A stretch of 54,072 nt of DNA from contig NZ_KI912267.1 of assembly GCF_000235425.2 (NCBI RefSeq), forward strand, positions 997,616 to 1,051,687, given 5' to 3'. The notes under the pieces are model-generated. The model made no database searches, had not been told where the DNA came from, and saw only the letters and a program-made list of their open reading frames with translations. The number at the start of each line of letters is the position of its first letter. Within the stretch, counting starts at the first letter, position 1. A program made the translations under genes and the position numbers. This document shows positions 31,391 through 48,092 of this stretch, piece by piece. The stretch is from Pseudofrankia saprophytica. GTDB lineage: Bacteria > Actinomycetota > Actinomycetes > Frankiales > Frankiaceae.

Positions 31391-32536
31391 GTGCCGGCCT
31401 ATCTCGACCACGCGTCGACGACCCCGCTGCACCCCGCCGCCCGCGCGGCGCTGCTGGCGGCGCTCGACGACGGCTGGGCCGACCCGGCCCGGCTCTACCG
31501 GGAGGGCCGCCGCGCACGGATGCTGCTGGACGCGGCGCGCGAGACCGTCGCCGGGGTGCTCGGCGCGCGGGCGGATGAGGTCTCCTTCTGCTCCAGCGGC
31601 ACGGCGGCCGCCCACCTGGCCGTGCTCGGCACCGCGACCGCGCGCCGGCGCGCCGGCGACCTGGTGCTGGTCAGCGCGGTCGAGCACTCGAGCGTGCTGC
31701 ACGCGGCCGAGCGGCACGAACGGGCCGGTGGCCGCACCCACACGCTCGAGGTGGACCGTCACGGCCGGGTGGACCCGGCGAGCTGCGTACCCCCGCCGGG
31801 CACCGCGCTCGTCTCGGTGCAGCACGCCAACCACGAGGTCGGCACCATCCAGCCGGTGGCGGCGGTGGCCGAGGCGTTGCGCGCGGCCATCCCCCTGCAC
31901 ACCGACGCCGCGATGACCGTCGGGCGCATACCGGTGGACATCACCGCGCTGGGCGCGGACCTGCTGACGGCGAGCGCGCACAAGTTCGGCGGCCCGGCGG
32001 GTGTCGGGATCCTGGTGGTGCGCGCCGGTACCCGCTGGGTGAATCCGATGCCGGCCGATGAGCGCGAGGCGGGCCGGGCGGCCGGATTCCCCAACCTGCC
32101 AGCGATCGTGGCGGCCGCGGCGGCGCTGCACGCGCGAGCCGGCGAGCTCGACGCCGAACGGGACCGGCTGGGCGCGCTCACCGCCGCGCTGCGCGCCCGG
32201 CTGCCGGTGCTGGTCGACGACGTCGAACTGCTCGGCGACCCGGACCCAGCCGGCCGGCTGCCGAACCTGGTCGCCTTCTCCTGTCTCTACGTCGCGGGCG
32301 AGGCGCTGCTCGGCGAACTGGACCGGGCGGGAATCGCGGTCAGCAGCGGCTCGAGCTGTACGTCGGACTCACTCACCCCGAGCCACGTGCTGGTCGCGAT
32401 GGGCGCCCTGTCCCACGGGAACGTGCGGGTCTCGTTCGGCCGCGACTCCACCGCCGCGGACCTCTCGGCCCTGCTGGACGTCCTGCCCGGCGCCGTCACC
32501 GCGATCCGTGAACGCGTCGGCGCGGTAGGCCTGTAG
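31391..32536 (+). CDS. cysteine desulfurase (class V aminotransferase fold)
   Basis: 381-residue PLP enzyme that removes sulfur from cysteine as enzyme-bound persulfide. The opening YLDHASTTPLHP and HANHEVGTIQP are typical of IscS/NifS. PLP binds K198 in ASAHKFGGPAGVG, with H in AVEHSSVL and D in HTDAAMTVG. The catalytic Cys is C323 in SSGSSCTSD, with the long-loop SGSxC form of class I desulfurases. Next is a TusA-like sulfur carrier 73 bases downstream, a logical acceptor. It could feed tRNA thiolation, molybdenum cofactor or Fe-S synthesis. Start GTG is leaderless. Confidence 0.92.
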   Translation: MPAYLDHASTTPLHPAARAALLAALDDGWADPARLYREGRRARMLLDAARETVAGVLGARADEVSFCSSGTAAAHLAVLGTATARRRAGDLVLVSAVEHSSVLHAAERHERAGGRTHTLEVDRHGRVDPASCVPPPGTALVSVQHANHEVGTIQPVAAVAEALRAAIPLHTDAAMTVGRIPVDITALGADLLTASAHKFGGPAGVGILVVRAGTRWVNPMPADEREAGRAAGFPNLPAIVAAAAALHARAGELDAERDRLGALTAALRARLPVLVDDVELLGDPDPAGRLPNLVAFSCLYVAGEALLGELDRAGIAVSSGSSCTSDSLTPSHVLVAMGALSHGNVRVSFGRDSTAADLSALLDVLPGAVTAIRERVGAVGL

Positions 32537-34860: not shown

Positions 34861-35587
34861 AGGGGCTGCTCCTGCCCTTCGGAAAGTGCCTACGGGTGCG
34901 CCGCGGGATCCGTACGACCGGGCCGTGTCGGCGCCCTCCACACAGCTCGGCCGGTCCCATCCGGCAACGGTGCCGCCGGTTGGTTCGGCCGAGGTGTGAC
35001 GTACGCCGCGTCGACGCACACCGTGTCACTGGTGTCATGTCCTCAGCGCTCAACAACCGCGGCCCGGTTCCGCTTCCCATCGTAGCTACCGGCCGGTGCG
35101 CCGGCCACGACGTCACCCTTCTCCGGGCATGCCTCCCAGGCTGTGGGCCCGCGGTGCCAGTGCCAACGGGGCAGGCGTTCCCAGCCAGTCCACCCGGAGC
35201 GGGTCACCCTAGTGACCCATCTCACTCGGGTCGAACGTCTCTTCCGCGACCGGGCCGCCGGACCCGCTGACGCCCGCGCACGGCACGAACAGGCGAGCCC
35301 GCGGCGGCCCGCGGCCCGGCAGAACTGTCGGGAAGGTGACCGCGGGGCGACTCCGCGACAAACCACGCATGGCCCGCAGACCGCAGTTAGTGTCTCGTCG
35401 ACCATTAATGAGTTAGAGTCTCTTCGACCATATGTCGACCGACCTCCCCACAGAACGCGCCAGAGCCAGCCCGGTGTCCCGCCCCACGAGCCCCGAACGT
35501 CCAGGGCCGAGGGGCGTCCCAGGGGCCGGCGAGGGCCGGCCGGTGGGGGCGTCCTCGTACACGGCGCACCGCCCAAGGGGGCCTGCC
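34861..35587. other. divergent intergenic region, erpA / nadA
   Basis: 727 bases. Open frames on both strands show no family resemblance. The only pattern recognised is the 21-base direct repeat at 35385-35431 listed separately. The frame of nadA is open from 35432, but the first part is Pro/Arg-rich and not NadA-like. Confidence 0.55.
35385..35431. promoter_or_regulatory. 21-base direct repeat upstream of nadA, candidate operator
   Basis: AGTTAGTGTCTCGTCGACCAT (35385-35405, 19 of 21 positions shared) recurs at 35411-35431 with a 26-base period. The flanking ATTAATG and CATATG are AT-rich for this genome. NAD synthesis genes are commonly repressed by NAD-sensing regulators (NrtR, NadR, NiaR). 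Which one would act here is unknown. Confidence 0.5.
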
Positions 35588-36778
35588 ATGACGACCAACC
35601 CGACTCTGGAACGCCTCGGTGTGACCCCGTCACCGCTGGCCCTGCTCCTGCTCGGCCACGGGACCGACGCCGACAGCGAACGCGGCGTCGACTGCCCCGG
35701 CGCGCTGCCCGCGGCGGCCGACCCGGCGCTGGCCGAGCGGGCCGCCGCGGCGAAGGCGGCACTGGGCGAGAAGGTCTTCGTCCTCGGCCACCACTACCAG
35801 CGCGACGACGTGATCGCGTTCGCGGACGTCACCGGCGACTCGTTCAAGCTCGCCCAGCAGGCCGCGGCCCGGCCCGAGGCCGAGCACATCGTGTTCTGTG
35901 GCGTGCACTTCATGGCCGAGAGTGCCGACATCCTGACCGCGCCGCACCAAGGGGTGATCCTCCCGGACCTGGCGGCGGGCTGCTCGATGGCCGACATGGC
36001 CACCGCCGAGCAGGTCGAACAGGCCTGGGACGACCTGCTCGACGCGGGCGCGGCCGAGGGCACCGTGCCGGTGACCTACATGAACTCCTCAGCCGCGATC
36101 AAAGCGTTCACGGGCCGCCACGGCGGCACGGTCTGCACGTCGTCGAATGCTCGACGCGCGCTCGACTGGGCGTTCGGCCCCGAGCGCGGCGGCCAGCGCG
36201 TGCTGTTCCTGCCCGACCAGCACCTGGGCCGCAACACCGCGGTCGGTGAGCTCGGGTTGACCGAGGCGGACTGCGTCGTCTACGACCCGCGCCGCCCGAA
36301 CGGGGGCCTCACCCCCGCTCAGCTGCGGGACGCGAAGATGATCCTCTGGCGGGGCCACTGCTCGGTGCACGGCCGGTTCAGCCGCGACTGCGTCGACGAG
36401 GTACGGGCGCGGGTCCCTGGGGTAAGTGTTCTGGTACACCCCGAATGCAAGCGCGAGGTGGTGACCGCCGCCGACCTGGTCGGATCGACGGAGTACATCA
36501 TCAAGGTGGTGGACGCGGCCCCGGCCGGTTCCTCGTTCGCGATCGGCACCGAGCTCAACCTGGTGCAGCGGCTCGCGAACCGCCACCCTGACAAGAACAT
36601 CGTCTTCCTGGACCGCACCGTGTGCTTCTGCTCCACAATGAACCGCATCGACATGCCACACCTCGTGTGGGCGCTGGAGTCCCTCGTCCGCGGCGAGCCG
36701 GTCAACCGGATCACGGTCGCACCGGACGTGGCCACCTATGCCCGAAAGGCCCTCGACCAGATGTTGGCTCTCCCGTAA
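35588..36778 (+). CDS. nadA: quinolinate synthase
   Basis: 396-residue 4Fe-4S enzyme that condenses iminoaspartate with dihydroxyacetone phosphate to quinolinate in de novo NAD synthesis. Family motifs are VFVLGHHYQRDDVIAFAD, IVFCGVHFMAESADIL (first cluster Cys), MNSSAAIKAFTG, FLPDQHLGRNT, GHCSVHGRF (second Cys region), HPECKREVV and a late CFCSTM. ATG 35588 follows AAGGGG. Its stop overlaps the next start (TAATG). nadB and nadC, its usual partners, are not next to it; they must be elsewhere or replaced. Confidence 0.95.
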   Translation: MTTNPTLERLGVTPSPLALLLLGHGTDADSERGVDCPGALPAAADPALAERAAAAKAALGEKVFVLGHHYQRDDVIAFADVTGDSFKLAQQAAARPEAEHIVFCGVHFMAESADILTAPHQGVILPDLAAGCSMADMATAEQVEQAWDDLLDAGAAEGTVPVTYMNSSAAIKAFTGRHGGTVCTSSNARRALDWAFGPERGGQRVLFLPDQHLGRNTAVGELGLTEADCVVYDPRRPNGGLTPAQLRDAKMILWRGHCSVHGRFSRDCVDEVRARVPGVSVLVHPECKREVVTAADLVGSTEYIIKVVDAAPAGSSFAIGTELNLVQRLANRHPDKNIVFLDRTVCFCSTMNRIDMPHLVWALESLVRGEPVNRITVAPDVATYARKALDQMLALP

Positions 36779-40686: not shown

Positions 40687-41583
40687 GTGCGCGTCACCCT
40701 GCTGGGCACCGGCTCGGCCGACGGCTGGCCGAACCCCTGGTGTGCCTGCCCGTCGTGCGCCTGGGCGCGCGACACCGGCAACGCCCGAGGGCAGACGGGC
40801 GTGCTGCTCGACGATGCCGTGCTGGTCGACATCGGCCCGGATGTGCCGCGCGCCGCGGCCCGGTTCGGAGTCGGGCTGGAGGGCCTGCGTCATCTCCTGG
40901 TCGGGCATGCCCATCCGGACCACGTCGGGCCGGAGGCACTGATGTGGCGATCCTGGAGCACCGCGGCGACCCGCCCGCTCGACGTCGTCGGGCCGCCGGC
41001 GGTGCTCGACGCCATCGCGGCCTTCCTGACCCGCTGGGAGGGAAGGGCGCCCGGCGAGGCCGGCTCGCCCCTGCGCCCCAGGCCCGCCCTGGCCGGCAGC
41101 CCCATCCGGCTCGACGGTCCGGACAAGGACGGGGATGGGGACGGCTACCGGGTGGTTCCGGTGGCGGCGACCCACGGGGACGCCTCGATCGGCCCGGCGG
41201 TGCTCTACGACATCACCGGCCCGGACGGCGCCCGGCTGCTCTATGCCTGCGACACCGGTCCGCTGACCACGGCGACCGTCGAGGCGCTGGCCGGCCGCGC
41301 GTTCGACGTGGCGCTCGTCGAGGAGAACAACGGCGACCGGCCCGGCTTCGGCGACCATCTCGACCTCGCGACGTTCACCACCGACCTCGAGCGGCTCCGG
41401 GCGCGCGACGCCCTGACCGACACCTCGACCGTCGTGGCCGTCCACCTGAGCCACCGCAACCCACCCGGGCCGGCGCTCGCCGAGCGCCTCGCCGCGATCG
41501 GCGTCGATCTGCTCCCGGACGGCGCGGTCCTCGAGGCCACTCCTGGCGGGCGCGCCACCGTGACGCTTCCCGCGTCGGGCTGA
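40687..41583 (+). CDS. MBL-fold metallohydrolase, PhnP-like
   Basis: 298 residues. The opening VTLLGTGSADGWPNPWCACPSC carries the cysteine pair of PhnP-type phosphodiesterases. The metallo-beta-lactamase motif is GHAHPDHVG (about residues 74-82). Further metal ligands are in AATHGDAS, YACDTGP and VHLSHRNPP. PhnP cleaves cyclic phosphate esters; in actinobacteria a related domain is sometimes fused to the cobinamide kinase CobU, which is notable because cobT and cobS lie 5-8 kb away. GTG 40687 follows GGGAGAA. Substrate not determinable. It contains a small Asp/Gly-rich insertion near residue 150. Confidence 0.85.
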   Translation: MRVTLLGTGSADGWPNPWCACPSCAWARDTGNARGQTGVLLDDAVLVDIGPDVPRAAARFGVGLEGLRHLLVGHAHPDHVGPEALMWRSWSTAATRPLDVVGPPAVLDAIAAFLTRWEGRAPGEAGSPLRPRPALAGSPIRLDGPDKDGDGDGYRVVPVAATHGDASIGPAVLYDITGPDGARLLYACDTGPLTTATVEALAGRAFDVALVEENNGDRPGFGDHLDLATFTTDLERLRARDALTDTSTVVAVHLSHRNPPGPALAERLAAIGVDLLPDGAVLEATPGGRATVTLPASG

Positions 41584-42005: not shown

Positions 42006-45000
42006 CTAGTCGAGGCGCAGCTCGTAGAGGTAGAGGCCGCCGGAGGCGGCCACGGCGAGGCCGCGCGAGTCGGGCAGCCAGCCGCAGTCCCTGGCCGCGC
42101 CGTCGAACCGCATGAGCGTGACGCACCGCCAGCGCTCCGTCTCCCAGATTCGCACCGAGCCGTCGCCACCGGCGCTGGCGAGATACGCCCCGTCGGGGCT
42201 GACCGCCGCGCCCCGGACCGTGTGGGTGTGCCCGGCCAGCACCGGCCCCGCGAGCCAGCCGTCGGTCCACCAGACCCTCAGCGTGTGGTCGGCGCCGGCG
42301 GAGACCAGGAAACGCCCGTCCGGCGCGACGGTGAGGCCCAGCACCTCGTTGGTGTGCCCGGTGAGCAGGGCCACCGGCTCCAGCGTGATGACATCCCAGA
42401 CCCGGATCTCCCGGTCCGTGCCGCCAGCGGCCACCCAGGTGCCGTCAGGGGCGACGACGCAGGTGTGCCCGGCGCCACCGCCACCGGTCTCCCCGTCCGC
42501 GGAGGAGGCCTCGGCATAGTAAGGATCTTCGGGGTACGGATCGGTCGGGTACCTGTCCGCGTCGTCCAGGTACCGGGCCCGCCGGCCCGTGGTCGACGGC
42601 TGGGTGGTCGAAGGCTGGCTGACGAACGCACGCGGCGGCGCGCCCGCCCGGCGACCACCGGCTCCGTCGGGCCCACCGGCACCCCCGCGGCCACCGCCAC
42701 CGGCGAACGAGGCGAGCCACTCGCCGCTCTGGGTGTCCCACATTCGCACGACGCCGTCCGCGCACGCGCCGACCAGCCAGGAACCGTCGGGCGACGCGGC
42801 GAAGCCGCGGACCTCGCTCGGCGAGGTCAGCACCGCGCGGACGACGCCGGTCGTCGGCTCCCACAGCCGGACGCCGCCGTCCCGGCCGGGCAGCGCCACC
42901 CAGCTGTCGTCGGGGGCGACCGCGCCGCCGCGGACGGGGTTGAGCCGCTCCCCCACCAGCGCGGCCCCCTGCTCGGCCGTGGCGACGTCCCACTGGACGG
43001 CCGTGGCGTCCTCGGAGACGGAGACCACCCAGCGCCCGTCCGAGCTCGCGACGCAGGCGCGCATCCCCTCGTCCCGGCCACTCGCCGCGACGCCCGGGTC
43101 GGCGAGCCCGACGTCCCAGATCCGCAGCGCCCCGTGCCGGCCGGCGGAGACCAGCCAGCTCCCGTCCGGGGCGATCGCGCAGACCGCCGCCGTCCCGCTC
43201 GGACCGACCAGTTGCCGGCGCGCGCCGGTCGCCGTGTCCCACAGCCGCACGACACCGTCGGCCGCGGTCGCGGCCACGGCCGCGCCGTCCGCGGTGACCG
43301 CGCAGCCGCGCGCCGCGGCGCCCACCTCGTAGCGCGCGACGGCGGCACGGGCCGCCGGATCCCACCGCCGGACCGTGCCGTCCTCCCCGGCGGACACCAG
43401 CCAGGCCGGCCCGTCGCAGACGGCGAGCCGGCGCACGGGACCGCGGTGCCCGCGCAGCTCGCCGGCCGGGGCGCCGCCCTGGCGGATGTCGAACAGCCGG
43501 ATCGTCCCGTCCTCGCACGCCACGGCGAGCAGCGAGCCATGGGGCGCGACCGCGCAGTCGCGCAACCGCCGGCCCGGGGTCACCACGATCATCGGGCCGG
43601 GCAGGCCGCTGCGGGCCCGCCAGCAGCGGACGACGCCGTCGTCGCCGCAGGTCGCGAACCAGGCGCCGGACGGGGCGACGGCGGCGCCGCGCACCTCCCC
43701 GTTGTGGCCGCGCAGCTCGAACCGGGCGGGTCCGCCGCGGGCGTCCCAGACCCGGACCACCCGGTCCGCGCCGCCCGACACGAGGAAGCGGCCGTCCGGC
43801 GAGATCACGCAGGTGTGCACGGCGCCGGTGTGGCCGGTCAGCACGGCGCGGGCCGCCGACGCGTCCGCGTCCCAGATCTGGACGGTGCCGTCGTCGCCGG
43901 CGCAGGCCAGCCAGCCGCCCGACGGCGCCACCGCGCAGGCGTTGACCGACGGGCGGTGGGCCTGGAGCACCCGGACGAGCCCGGGGTGGGGCTGGTCGGG
44001 CAGGCTCCAACGATTGACCAGCCGCGGCCCGCGCACCGTGGCGGCGAGCTGGGCGCGGGCGTCGGCGAGCGCGGGGATGCCGTCGAGCCGGCTCGTCAGC
44101 ACCGCGCTCAGGGCGCCCGGCGGATCGGTGGGGCCGAACAGGTGCGCGGTCTGGCGCAGCACCCGGCGCAACGCCCGCAGCGCCGGGTCCGTCGGGTCCA
44201 GCTCGGTGGCGAGCGCCAGGTCCGCGTCGACGGCGACCAGGCCGAGGCTCGGCCGGGCGAGCTTGGCGATCGTCCAGCGCAGGTCCCGCAGCAGCGCGAG
44301 CGCCTCGCCGGCGCGGCCGGCGCCGACGAGGTGCGCGACCAGGTTCGTCCACACATAGCCGGCCCGGCTCGGCAGCTCCCACCAGGCCGCGGGCGTGGCG
44401 GCGTCCGCCGCTTCGTCACCGGGGCCCGGGCGTTCGGTGTCACCCGCGGCGTCGCCGTCGTAGTTGTCGTTGTCCGCGAGGTCGTAGCCGTAGGTCAGGA
44501 CGTCGTCGGTGTCCGCGGCGCCGGCGGCCGGCGGCCGGCCCGGCGCGAGCAGCCGGGCTCGAAGCGCGTCGCACAGCAACCCGTGCAGCTCACGCAGCCG
44601 CCTCGGGCCGACGCGGACGCGCAGGTAGGAGCGCAGCACGTCCTGCATCAGCAGCGCGGGCGGGTGCCGGCGGTAGGCGAGCACCAGCGACAGGTCGACG
44701 AGCTCCTGGCACAGGTCGTCGACCTCGTCGGCGGTGAGCTCGCCGGTGGCGCCCCAGTACGCGTCGAGGACATAGCGGGGGATCTCGACGTCCTCGGGGA
44801 AGACGGCGAGCTCCAGGTACCGGTCGAGCTCGTCGCCGGTGAGCAGGCCGACGCTCGCCGACAGGGTGGCGCCGACCGCCTGGTTGCGATCCTCGAGCCG
44901 GGTGACGTCGAACGCCGTCGGGCCACGGCGTGCCAGCCGGGCGAGCACCCGGTCGGCCGCGCGCGGCGGTGGCACGCCCTCGCGCACCAGCCGGACGAGC

Positions 45001-46712
45001 GCCCGGTTGACCAGCCGCAGCAGCACCGGCCAGCGCCCGGTCGCGTCCAGCAGGCGGCGAGCCCGGTCGGCCGGCAGCACGAGGCCCAGCACGGCGGCCG
45101 CGTCCCGGTCCCCGTCCTCGTCCTCGGCGACGTGCGAGACGGTCTCCCCGGTGGACGTCTCCCCTGGCCGCGGGGCGAGGTCGAGGGTGAGCAGGCGGGC
45201 CGCCTCCGCGTCGGACATCGCCAGCACCTCGACGGTGTCGGCGGCGGCGAGGTCCGGCGGCAGGTCCCGCATCCGGGTGGTGACCAGCCGGACGCAGCCT
45301 GGGCCGCCCTGCAGGAACGGCGCGAGCTGCGCGCGGGTCCAGACGTCGTCGACGACGAGCAGTCGCCGCGGCGCGCCGAGCAGCTCGCCGAGGCGGAACC
45401 CGGCCTGCTCGGGGTCGGCGAGCGCCGGCCGGGCGCCGGACAGGGCCTCGCTCAGGTCGTTGACCTTGTCCGCGAGGTTCGCGCCGGTCACCGACTCACC
45501 GACGGTCACCCACAGCACCCCGCCGGGGAACGCGCCGACGATCTCCGGGCGCCGGCAGACCTCCGCCGCGAGCGTGGTCTTCCCGAAGCCGCCGACCCCG
45601 CGCAGCACCACGATCCGCGGCCGGGCCGCGCCCTGGGTCGCCTCTCCCGGCGCCGAGCCGGCGGCGACGGTCGGGAAGCCGCCCGTCCCCCCGGTGCCTC
45701 CCTCCGGCGGCACGGCCGGCAGCCGCGGCACGGCGGGCAGGTGCCCCCCGGCGGGGGAGACCGGCGGCCTGCCCAGCGCTGGTGGCGGGGCCAGCGCGGG
45801 TGGCGGGGCCAGCGCGGGTGGCGGGGGGGCCGGCAGGGTGATCTCGTCCGAGTAGGAGTCCTCGTCCGTGGCGGCGAGGGTGGCGCTGGCGGGCGGCGCG
45901 ATGGCGCGTAGGGATGGCGCGATGGTGCCGTCGGCTGGCGCGATGGTGCCGGCGGCGTGGGCCAGCAGCCGGGCGAGAACGGCCTCGGTGAGCTCCGGCC
46001 GGGCGACGACCTTGCCGTGCGCCGATGGCACCATCCACGGTCGGCGCGGCCCGGTGCCCGCCTGCGCCGCGTCGGGGCCGATCGCGCCGACCCCGACGAT
46101 GACCACGGCGGGTCCGGGGCCCAGGGCATTGCCGTTCGGCAGGGCGGCGGCGGCTTCCTCGCGCTCGCGGCGCTCGCGCTCACGCAGCTTGACCAGGGCG
46201 TCGAGGACCGCCGTCTCGAGGTCGGCCGGCGTCCGGAAGCTCGTGGTGATGAGGCCGACGCCGTTCAGCCGTTCCCGGAATCCGCGCTGGCGGTCGCCGT
46301 AAACGATGTCGGAGAACTCCTGGAACGGCACGAGGGCGTCCTCGGCGAGCAGGAACATCAGCCGTGGGATGCCGGCCTCGGTGGCCGCCTCGAACTCGAC
46401 CTCGGTGTAGGACAGGTCCGGCCGCTCGCGCACCGGGGTGCCGTATCGGAAGCCGATCAGGCCGACGTAGACGTCGCTCGCCCGGACCTGCTCGGCGCAG
46501 AACTCGGCCGGTGGGTCGTCGCGGGCGCCGAAGTAGGCCATGTCGACGGCGAGGTCACCAGCCCGGGCCACGGCACGCTCCGCCGCGGCGACGAACGACA
46601 GGTCGCGCGGGTAGGCCCGGAGCTCGGATGTATGGCTGAGGAACACCCGCCGCCGGTCGCCCGCCCCCCACCACCGCGGGACGACTTCCCGCCGATCTGG
46701 AACCAGCGACAC
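42006..46712 (-). CDS. giant STAND protein: DUF4062 - NB-ARC NTPase - 14 WD40 repeats
   Basis: 1568 residues. (1) Residues about 20-165: DUF4062, a Rossmann-like domain opening RRVFLSHTSELRAYP and including SDVYVGLIGFRYG and DLSYTEVEFEAA. (2) About 185-365: Ala/Pro-rich linker with short repeats. (3) About 366-700: NB-ARC STAND NTPase, Walker A GVGGFGKTT (K378), Walker B LLVVDDVW (D455, D456), sensor LVTTR, then a winged-helix region (YLELAVFPEDVEIP). (4) About 770-900: helical repeats. (5) About 913-1568: 14 WD40 repeats (VRVWDAR, IRLFDIR, VRLWDTA and so on), enough for two seven-blade propellers. Disordered residues about 1336-1413 interrupt blade 11. The plan resembles Apaf-1, with DUF4062 as presumed effector. 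Start GTG. It is a single gene. Role in phage defence or programmed death is inferred. Confidence 0.9.
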   Translation of the reverse strand: MSLVPDRREVVPRWWGAGDRRRVFLSHTSELRAYPRDLSFVAAAERAVARAGDLAVDMAYFGARDDPPAEFCAEQVRASDVYVGLIGFRYGTPVRERPDLSYTEVEFEAATEAGIPRLMFLLAEDALVPFQEFSDIVYGDRQRGFRERLNGVGLITTSFRTPADLETAVLDALVKLRERERREREEAAAALPNGNALGPGPAVVIVGVGAIGPDAAQAGTGPRRPWMVPSAHGKVVARPELTEAVLARLLAHAAGTIAPADGTIAPSLRAIAPPASATLAATDEDSYSDEITLPAPPPPALAPPPALAPPPALGRPPVSPAGGHLPAVPRLPAVPPEGGTGGTGGFPTVAAGSAPGEATQGAARPRIVVLRGVGGFGKTTLAAEVCRRPEIVGAFPGGVLWVTVGESVTGANLADKVNDLSEALSGARPALADPEQAGFRLGELLGAPRRLLVVDDVWTRAQLAPFLQGGPGCVRLVTTRMRDLPPDLAAADTVEVLAMSDAEAARLLTLDLAPRPGETSTGETVSHVAEDEDGDRDAAAVLGLVLPADRARRLLDATGRWPVLLRLVNRALVRLVREGVPPPRAADRVLARLARRGPTAFDVTRLEDRNQAVGATLSASVGLLTGDELDRYLELAVFPEDVEIPRYVLDAYWGATGELTADEVDDLCQELVDLSLVLAYRRHPPALLMQDVLRSYLRVRVGPRRLRELHGLLCDALRARLLAPGRPPAAGAADTDDVLTYGYDLADNDNYDGDAAGDTERPGPGDEAADAATPAAWWELPSRAGYVWTNLVAHLVGAGRAGEALALLRDLRWTIAKLARPSLGLVAVDADLALATELDPTDPALRALRRVLRQTAHLFGPTDPPGALSAVLTSRLDGIPALADARAQLAATVRGPRLVNRWSLPDQPHPGLVRVLQAHRPSVNACAVAPSGGWLACAGDDGTVQIWDADASAARAVLTGHTGAVHTCVISPDGRFLVSGGADRVVRVWDARGGPARFELRGHNGEVRGAAVAPSGAWFATCGDDGVVRCWRARSGLPGPMIVVTPGRRLRDCAVAPHGSLLAVACEDGTIRLFDIRQGGAPAGELRGHRGPVRRLAVCDGPAWLVSAGEDGTVRRWDPAARAAVARYEVGAAARGCAVTADGAAVAATAADGVVRLWDTATGARRQLVGPSGTAAVCAIAPDGSWLVSAGRHGALRIWDVGLADPGVAASGRDEGMRACVASSDGRWVVSVSEDATAVQWDVATAEQGAALVGERLNPVRGGAVAPDDSWVALPGRDGGVRLWEPTTGVVRAVLTSPSEVRGFAASPDGSWLVGACADGVVRMWDTQSGEWLASFAGGGGRGGAGGPDGAGGRRAGAPPRAFVSQPSTTQPSTTGRRARYLDDADRYPTDPYPEDPYYAEASSADGETGGGGAGHTCVVAPDGTWVAAGGTDREIRVWDVITLEPVALLTGHTNEVLGLTVAPDGRFLVSAGADHTLRVWWTDGWLAGPVLAGHTHTVRGAAVSPDGAYLASAGGDGSVRIWETERWRCVTLMRFDGAARDCGWLPDSRGLAVAASGGLYLYELRLD

Positions 46713-46871
46713 ATCCGGAAACTACCGCCTTCGGCCCACCCTGATCGCCCTCCTTGCTCGCCGGTTGTGTCGCTCACCCGATCCGGTGTTACTCGCGCCG
46801 GTCGGCCCCGGCGTCTGGTCGGTCACGGGGGCGCGCGGTCCGAGGCGCGGGCAATCAGGTAGTAAGACCTC

Positions 46872-48092
46872 GTGGAGAATCCGCTGACCGACGCGACCGG
46901 GGCGTCCTCGGCCGGAGAGCCGACCGCCGAGGTGACGCCCGCTGCGGCGGCCAGCTGGGCGAGCGTCTCGGCCGGCATCGGCGACGTGCCCGAGCCGGAC
47001 GCCGCCGCGGCCGCCGCCGAGCAGGCCGCCGCGCACCGCCGGGCACGCGCGCTCGGCCTGCCGCGGGGTTCGCTCGGCAAGCTCTCCGAGGTGGCCGTCT
47101 GGCTCGCCGCGGCCCAGGGCACCTCGCCGCCGCGGCCGATCACCCAGGCCCGCGCCATCCTGCTGGCCGCCGACCACGGCATCGCCGAGGCAGGCCTGTA
47201 TCCCTGGCCGCCCGGCGCCACCGCCCGCAGGCTGGCCGCCGTCATCGCCGGCGCCTCGCCGCTCGCCGTCCTCGCCCGTCGCGCCGGCGTCGGCCTGCGC
47301 CTCGTCGACATCGCCGTCGGCGCGACGGTCGAAGGCGATGTCGACTGCGATGTCGACGGCGAAGGCGACGTGGGACCGGGTCGGCCGGACGACGGCGGCC
47401 ACCGGGTGCGGGCTGGCAACGGGCGGATCGACCAGGACGACGCGCTGACCGTCGCCGAGGTGGACCAGGCGTTCGCCACCGGCCGGCTGCTCGCGGACGA
47501 GGAGGTCGACGCGGGCGCGGACCTGCTGATCCCGGGCGCGCTCGGCGTGGGGGCGGACACCGCCGCCGCGGTCGTCATCGCGGCGCTGCGCAGCCACGAG
47601 CCGATCGACGTGGTGGACCGCGGCGACGGCAGCGACGACGCGCGCTGGATGCTGCGTACCGCGGCGATCCGGGACGCGCTGCGCCGCACCCGCCCGTTCG
47701 CCGGCGACGCCCGTTCGGTGCTGCGGGTCGCCGGCGGCGCGGATCTCGCGGCCATCGCCGGCGTGCTCGTCCAGGCCGCCATCCGGCGCACCCCGGTCAT
47801 CATCGACGGCCCGGCGGCCTGCGCGGCGGCGCTCGCGGCGGAGCGGATGGCCCCGGGCGCCCGCGCCTGGTGGCTGGTGGGCAGCGACTGTCCCGACCCG
47901 GCGGCACGGCACGCCGTCGAGGCGCTCGGCCTGTCCCCGCTGGTCGACCTGAGGATCCGCGCCGACGACGGGACCGGCGCGTTCGCCGCCGCCGCGCTGG
48001 TGGCGGCCGCGGTGGAGACCGCCGCCGACCTCGCCGCCGCCGTGGCGGCGGACGGCGGGGCCAGTGAGGCCGATGCGGCGGACATCACCTGA
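46872..48092 (+). CDS. cobT: CobT-like protein (nicotinate-nucleotide-DMB phosphoribosyltransferase homologue) with altered active site
   Basis: 406 residues with the CobT fold: RGSLGKLSEVAVWLAAAQG, ILLAADHGIAEAGLYPWP, LRVAGGADLAAIAGVLVQAA and IIDGPAACAAALAAE are all recognisable. CobT activates the lower ligand of cobalamin. Two conserved motifs differ: the substrate loop MGIGNTT reads LGVGADT, and the catalytic LGEGTGA reads ADDGTGA, replacing the glutamate known as the catalytic base in Salmonella. An acidic insertion, DVDCDVDGEGDV, lies near residue 155. The frame is intact. GTG 46872 is preceded by TAGTAA at 6 bases. Activity is doubtful; it may be a neofunctionalised or non-catalytic homologue. 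Confidence 0.85.
   Translation: MENPLTDATGASSAGEPTAEVTPAAAASWASVSAGIGDVPEPDAAAAAAEQAAAHRRARALGLPRGSLGKLSEVAVWLAAAQGTSPPRPITQARAILLAADHGIAEAGLYPWPPGATARRLAAVIAGASPLAVLARRAGVGLRLVDIAVGATVEGDVDCDVDGEGDVGPGRPDDGGHRVRAGNGRIDQDDALTVAEVDQAFATGRLLADEEVDAGADLLIPGALGVGADTAAAVVIAALRSHEPIDVVDRGDGSDDARWMLRTAAIRDALRRTRPFAGDARSVLRVAGGADLAAIAGVLVQAAIRRTPVIIDGPAACAAALAAERMAPGARAWWLVGSDCPDPAARHAVEALGLSPLVDLRIRADDGTGAFAAAALVAAAVETAADLAAAVAADGGASEADAADIT

Follow-up and report, generated by a model that had tools for sequence, protein, structure and literature searches.

The window analysed here is a 54,072-nucleotide stretch of the Pseudofrankia saprophytica genome (RefSeq assembly GCF_000235425.2, contig NZ_KI912267.1, positions 997,616 to 1,051,687). 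On its reverse strand, facing cobT, lies a single gene whose product combines a DUF4062 domain, an NB-ARC nucleotide-binding part, a helical arm and two WD40 propellers. The features of the gene and its divergent neighbour are as follows.

42006..46712, reverse strand: whole gene, 1568 residues, GTG start; open reading frame with orthologues at the matching place in six of seven other genomes of the genus.
46158..46658, reverse strand: DUF4062/TIR-like domain, residues 19-185, predicted NADase effector (Pfam PF13271, E 3.9e-14).
46395..46397, reverse strand: E106, the second E of SYTEVEF, predicted to be the catalytic Glu (alignment with the KpSwz chain).
45633..46157, reverse strand: Pro/Ala-rich linker, residues 186-360, the fastest-changing part.
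45153..45632, reverse strand: NB-ARC nucleotide-binding part, residues 361-520 (Pfam PF00931, E 4.1e-16; 9.1e-17 when cut out alone).
45573..45599, reverse strand: Walker A, GVGGFGKTT, residues 372-380.
45339..45362, reverse strand: Walker B, LLVVDDVW, residues 451-458.
44043..45092, reverse strand: winged helix and helical arm, residues 541-890 (APAF-1-like_WHD match below threshold; the Apaf-1 alignment passes through).
43104..43988, reverse strand: first seven-bladed WD40 propeller, residues 909-1203.
42009..43085, reverse strand: second WD40 propeller, blades 8-14, residues 1210-1568.
42480..42698, reverse strand: low-confidence insert in the second propeller, residues 1339-1411, probably disordered (predicted local distance difference test, pLDDT, < 50 at model positions 971-1043).
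46719..46724, reverse strand: possible -10 box, TAGTTT, 6 bases ahead of the GTG (TAGTTT/TAGCTT in six aligned loci of the genus, this one included).
46872..48092, forward strand: cobT, divergent neighbour outside the gene that marks its fixed site (PF02277, E 4.2e-84; NCBIfam CobT models).

The DUF4062 match, the only one in this genome, covers residues 22-110 and scored 53.1 bits against a curated cut-off of 24.7; the modelled domain had a pLDDT of 88.0. The NB-ARC match spans residues 365-520 and, with Walker A and Walker B both present, assigns the protein to the STAND (signal transduction ATPases with numerous domains), or NB-ARC (AP-ATPase), class. The pattern GxGGxGK[ST] was kept in every relative whose frame reaches Walker A (28 of the 30 relatives read), and a VTTR motif begins at residue 477. 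Pfam divided the dense WD40 region into 10 separate stretches, in which 14 units (residues 916-1564) were placed by eye. These matches and motif positions agree with the original prediction, made from the letters alone, of DUF4062, NB-ARC with Walker A, Walker B and TTR motifs, and 14 WD40 units. Its further claim of an Apaf-1-like STAND architecture was borne out by the domain content and by the model of residues 369-1568, whose best match in the Protein Data Bank over almost its full length was Apaf-1 (3sfz/3shf), aligned over model positions 1-1199. The position of the TAGTTT box suggests that the gene may have a leaderless start.

The available sections of a May 2026 preprint (PMC13174449) describe DUF4062 as a TIR-like NADase domain, found in bacterial Swarozyc and human TEP1. 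They report NADase activity in vitro for two such proteins, the portal-triggered KpSwz and the vault protein TEP1, with E97 and E1008, respectively, as the catalytic Glu. A profile of the present domain and its relatives matched the KpSwz chain 10wc over the whole domain (E 7.4e-12), and E106 aligned with an Ala of that chain, taken as E97A. The Glu was invariant in all 27 rows of an alignment whose members, this protein included, were the author's pick among DUF4062 search matches (A1). It was likewise present in 28 of 28 readable loci selected by hidden Markov model (this one included; two of the 30, L032 and L033, were unread) and in 80 of 80 members of a larger set (A2), for which the result is partly circular, the residue being itself written into one of the two patterns used for the search. 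The profile match to TEP1 (11gz) was weak (E 0.038); R89 of an RYG motif probably corresponds to TEP1 R976, a placement inferred from chain length, and the Ala mutant of R976 is reported to have reduced activity (PMC13174449, available sections). Judged by its Pfam score and catalytic Glu, the domain groups with the TIR-like NADases, and its sequence predicts NAD+ hydrolysis. The proposal that DUF4062 is the effector thus gains a TIR-like sequence and fold, a conserved catalytic Glu and a predicted activity. Fold alone was rejected as proof of an NADase, as glycosidases tie in the fold comparison.

Two other roles for the domain were weighed. It might drain nucleotide pools instead of NAD+, as a nucleotide or deoxynucleotide N-glycosidase resembling DNPH1, MilB or NDT; this is very unlikely given that the whole domain matches a biochemically tested NADase and that the catalytic Glu lines up; the six chains with E up to 10 in the profile search include no such glycosidase. 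An adaptor or scaffold without catalysis, which NWD1, NWD2 or NPHP3 may be, is a hardly stronger candidate: of the four human STAND proteins with DUF4062, three showed no activity in vitro according to the same sections of PMC13174449, but here the Glu never varies in the sets that were read, R89 probably matches TEP1 R976, and the TIR-like domain ranks with the best-conserved parts of the protein.

The locus was surveyed in 35 Frankiaceae genomes (G000-G034). A DUF4062 gene adjoins cobT or cobT-cobS in 24 of them, a count that includes G015, where the frame stops after DUF4062 (L109) and the copy is probably broken; in G028, the contig ends within the gene. Three further genomes keep decayed remnants at the cobT site. 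In two of these, G008 and G023, the C-terminal part alone is left, as an open 791-codon frame (L095) and a frame-shifted one (L096), and in G016 a relic of the last blade is all that remains. In the related G008 and G023, the DUF4062 and NB-ARC end is gone and the helical arm and WD40 part are kept (L095, 7486-9828; L096, 7305-9553). Decay there removed what is presumed to be the toxic end of the protein. No DUF4062 gene was found on reading the cobT region of G007, G009, G013, G018, G021, G024 and G030; one weak WD40 match 2.6 kb away in G024 (L187) was not counted as presence. The eleventh genome without a recorded gene, G010, is 63% complete and was given no closer look.

Within the genus, the TIR-like domains of the six orthologues at the matching place are 79-94% identical to that of the window. 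Five of the six have the same flanks, with aldo-keto reductase, TetR and nitroreductase-family genes on one side and the divergent cobT on the other. In L027, the gene and cobT-cobS are inverted relative to the flanks, the gene still facing cobT. The orthologous loci also hold pepA (five), a metallo-β-lactamase (MBL)-fold gene (three) and cobS (three, plus one locus that has a fragment).

Among the best 80 of 104 confirmed DUF4062 loci, 19 were linked to cobT, all from Frankiaceae. In a DUF4062 tree built by a quick method without bootstrap, the 19 cobT-linked rows (18 loci and the window) fell on one side of a branch with an SH-aLRT (approximate likelihood ratio test) value of 98. Outside the family, two of 23 class-level genomes had a DUF4062 match. 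The simplest reading is a single arrival before the family diversified, followed by vertical descent and repeated loss. One clade, one site and losses that include decay in place do not describe a mobile accessory defence gene, which would occupy variable sites. The original prediction of an accessory insertion therefore fails within the family, where 24 of 35 genomes carry the gene at the cobT site, three more hold it decayed, and the cobT-linked copies form one clade. A second set of DUF4062-NB-ARC-WD40 genes (L058, L061, L064, L075, L102-L104) is patchily distributed in the family, away from cobT; these are more likely the roaming defence forms. Genomes with the gene are about 7.6 Mb in size against 5.4 Mb for those without it or with it decayed (24 vs 11 genomes; Mann-Whitney p 0.011, with kinship ignored, the broken G015 copy counted as present and the incomplete G010 as lacking).

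Such a fixed locus, held by 24 of 35 genomes within one clade, favours a domesticated role in which the same NADase machine answers a signal from within rather than phage. That signal might be starvation, the state of NAD or a cofactor, a developmental change in filament, vesicle or spore, or a prophage-like particle residing in the cell. We regard this role as possible, at well below even odds. Co-option has a precedent in LypABC, a CARD-NLR-like system needed for release of the Caulobacter gene-transfer agent (PMC13236601, available sections). However, 10 of the 35 genomes have cobT but only a decayed gene, or none that the survey found, so the job of the gene is dispensable. No connection with development emerged either, though no search was aimed at one.

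A functional link to cobT by way of a common divergent promoter was also considered and is weakened by inversion of cobT-cobS in L070, L071 and L189 and by the persistence of cobT where the gene is absent. In these three loci, from a Frankia subgroup, the gene follows cobS rather than facing cobT.

We evaluated selection as the ratio of nonsynonymous to synonymous divergence (dN/dS, Nei-Gojobori). Against the two nearest orthologues, values were lowest in the TIR-like domain (0.15-0.18) and NB-ARC (0.17-0.19), intermediate in WD40 (0.24-0.27) and the helical arm (0.32-0.36), and highest in the linker (0.7-1.0). Across seven pairs within the genus, the WD40 ratio was 0.16-0.43; purifying selection on the propellers there is a further point for a domesticated role. 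Some Frankia pairs argue the other way, their propellers diverging fast: in L120-L121 and L121-L117, WD40 dN was approximately 0.16 against 0.011-0.014 for the TIR-like domain, with a WD40 dN/dS of 0.38-0.45 and a raised dS. Specifically, L120-L121 had a WD40 dN of 0.167 and dS of 0.372, compared with a dS of 0.16-0.25 in the TIR-like domain, NB-ARC and arm (linker, 0.563). In L118-L112, the WD40 dN of 0.209 was below the 0.255 of the arm.

Hot spots R1, R1-2 and D-1, whose positions we took from the WD40 literature and assigned by eye (unsure in blades 11 and 14), were compared with other positions. Conservation at hot spots, in the rest of the blade and at non-core positions was, respectively, 0.776, 0.799 and 0.698 within the genus; 0.582, 0.711 and 0.594 in Frankia; and 0.458, 0.569 and 0.452 over all rows. 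In all three groups, hot spots varied no more than the remaining non-core positions did, to within about 0.01, and an arms-race signal at these spots, sought in each group, was not found. The sequences indicate a sensor that changes faster in some Frankia, by drift or by reshuffling, and that bears no clear sign of an arms race; recombination among alleles is possible. The original prediction had held that synteny in all relatives without diversification of the WD40 surface, along with no effect of expression or phage challenge, would speak against a defence switch. Within the genus the sequence side of this is largely what we observed, the hot spots there being conserved to about the same degree as the remaining blade; some Frankia propellers do evolve quickly, though the hot spots are not singled out.

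The window also holds respiratory-chain genes, a NifS-like cysteine desulfurase, nadA, cobS, pepA, gcvT and lipoamide dehydrogenase. These housekeeping neighbours, nadA and cobT included, likewise suit a domesticated role. nadA (quinolinate synthase, NAD biosynthesis; 35432-36778) lies approximately 5 kb from the predicted NADase, and the cobT product consumes nicotinate mononucleotide; their nearness is probably a chance of backbone order. A PhnP/ribonuclease Z-like MBL-fold gene (40687-41583) adjoins the gene and stays beside it in many family loci; its match to the anti-Pycsar phosphodiesterase Apyc1 was weak and sub-threshold (E 0.0039). PADLOC, run on 20 of the 43 called frames of the window, reported no defence system. 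Of those 20, only the desulfurase and a DEDDh exonuclease gave matches; the exonuclease also matched the candidate PDC-S48. The desulfurase (31391-32536) matched the SspA and DndA models (E ~1e-82), an assignment we rejected: NifS-type cysteine desulfurase models of NCBIfam score best, all under their own cut-offs, and the match is probably a generic family one. No other Dnd or Ssp part was found among the 20 scanned proteins. Control of the shared region by a B12 riboswitch was dropped, as the window had no Rfam match at the gathering threshold.

The domain order, nucleotide-binding motifs, catalytic Glu and Apaf-1-like arrangement are established by comparison, and from them we infer each dynamic step of the following scheme. 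We favour, with a probability of roughly 60%, an autoinhibited single-gene STAND switch of Apaf-1 architecture, in which a TIR-like NADase replaces the CARD, oligomerisation turns on NAD+ hydrolysis, and abortive infection is the likely outcome. At rest, the propellers would fold back and hold an ADP-bound form. A trigger on the propellers would admit ATP, after which several protomers would assemble through NB-ARC and bring their DUF4062 domains together; the clustered domains would then hydrolyse NAD+ until growth stops or the cell dies. An infection product is the likeliest trigger, and protection of the filament or colony by abortive infection is accordingly the most likely benefit; by analogy with KpSwz, defence is most likely the purpose. 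Weighing against this reading are the fixed locus, the housekeeping neighbours and the calm hot spots, which keep a domesticated role open, and the nature of the gene as an old, locus-fixed family gene rather than a roaming island gene. That the gene has given the filament, since the family's ancestor, a resident switch for altruistic death or NAD homeostasis, fixed at one site between NAD and cobalamin genes and not serving as exchangeable phage immunity, is a more doubtful proposal. For TEP1, the authors of PMC13174449 speculate, in the available sections, that WD40 sensing leads to NTPase oligomerisation and an active TIR-like domain; the same scheme, an NADase apoptosome, best explains the present protein.

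STAND-WD40 proteins are already known in bacteria, as are DUF4062 as an NADase and the DUF4062-STAND-WD40 layout in animals. What is new is a bacterial form that is Apaf-1-shaped and has its catalytic Glu intact, at a locus that is fixed yet has been lost repeatedly; a predicted NADase apoptosome that is vertically inherited in this way is unusual beside roaming defence genes, and it questions the view that bacterial NLR-like NADases are always of the roaming kind. In the literature searches made, no listing pointed to a paper on this gene; supplementary figures of PMC13174449 on DUF4062 domain partners may list bacterial WD40 fusions, and the available part of PMC7159879 contains no DUF4062. 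If the resident-switch reading is true, the protein would be the bacterial equivalent of an ancestral arrangement that could have given rise to switches of the TEP1, NWD and Apaf-1 types. Because it has the full DUF4062-NB-ARC-WD40 layout and the catalytic Glu, the activation of WD40-STAND forms (TEP1, NWD1/2) becomes testable in a simple, single-gene bacterial system.

With Swarozyc, represented by the Klebsiella antiphage protein KpSwz (10wc, 11cq, 11cv), the protein shares the sequence of the whole DUF4062 domain and the catalytic Glu. In KpSwz, however, a C-terminal winged-helix AUX domain senses portal, whereas residues 361-1568 here are NB-ARC, arm and propellers; the tested Swarozyc genes sit in defence islands (PMC13174449, available sections), and this gene does not. 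Human TEP1, of the RNA vault, and NWD1, NWD2 and NPHP3 resemble it in having DUF4062, a STAND NTPase, a helical part and, in several, WD40 repeats (same source), but they use NACHT in place of NB-ARC, and TEP1, as a vault component, additionally contains TROVE and further parts. Cyanobacterial DUF4062-NB-ARC-helical-WD40 fusions (L168, L170 and L181; Cyanobium/Synechococcaceae) have TIR-like domains 44-45% identical to this one. Bacterial STAND antiphage proteins such as Avs and bNACHT follow a logic of effector, STAND NTPase and repeat sensor, which this protein shares; its sole PADLOC match was of the WD40 part to HEAT-ARM_XIII (E 4.3e-35), with no Avs or NACHT model among the matches listed. 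Apaf-1, of the metazoan apoptosome, has NB-ARC, winged helix, helical arm and two WD40 propellers in the identical order, its propellers having seven and eight blades where this protein has seven and seven. At the N-terminus, where Apaf-1 has a CARD that recruits caspase, the bacterial protein has DUF4062.
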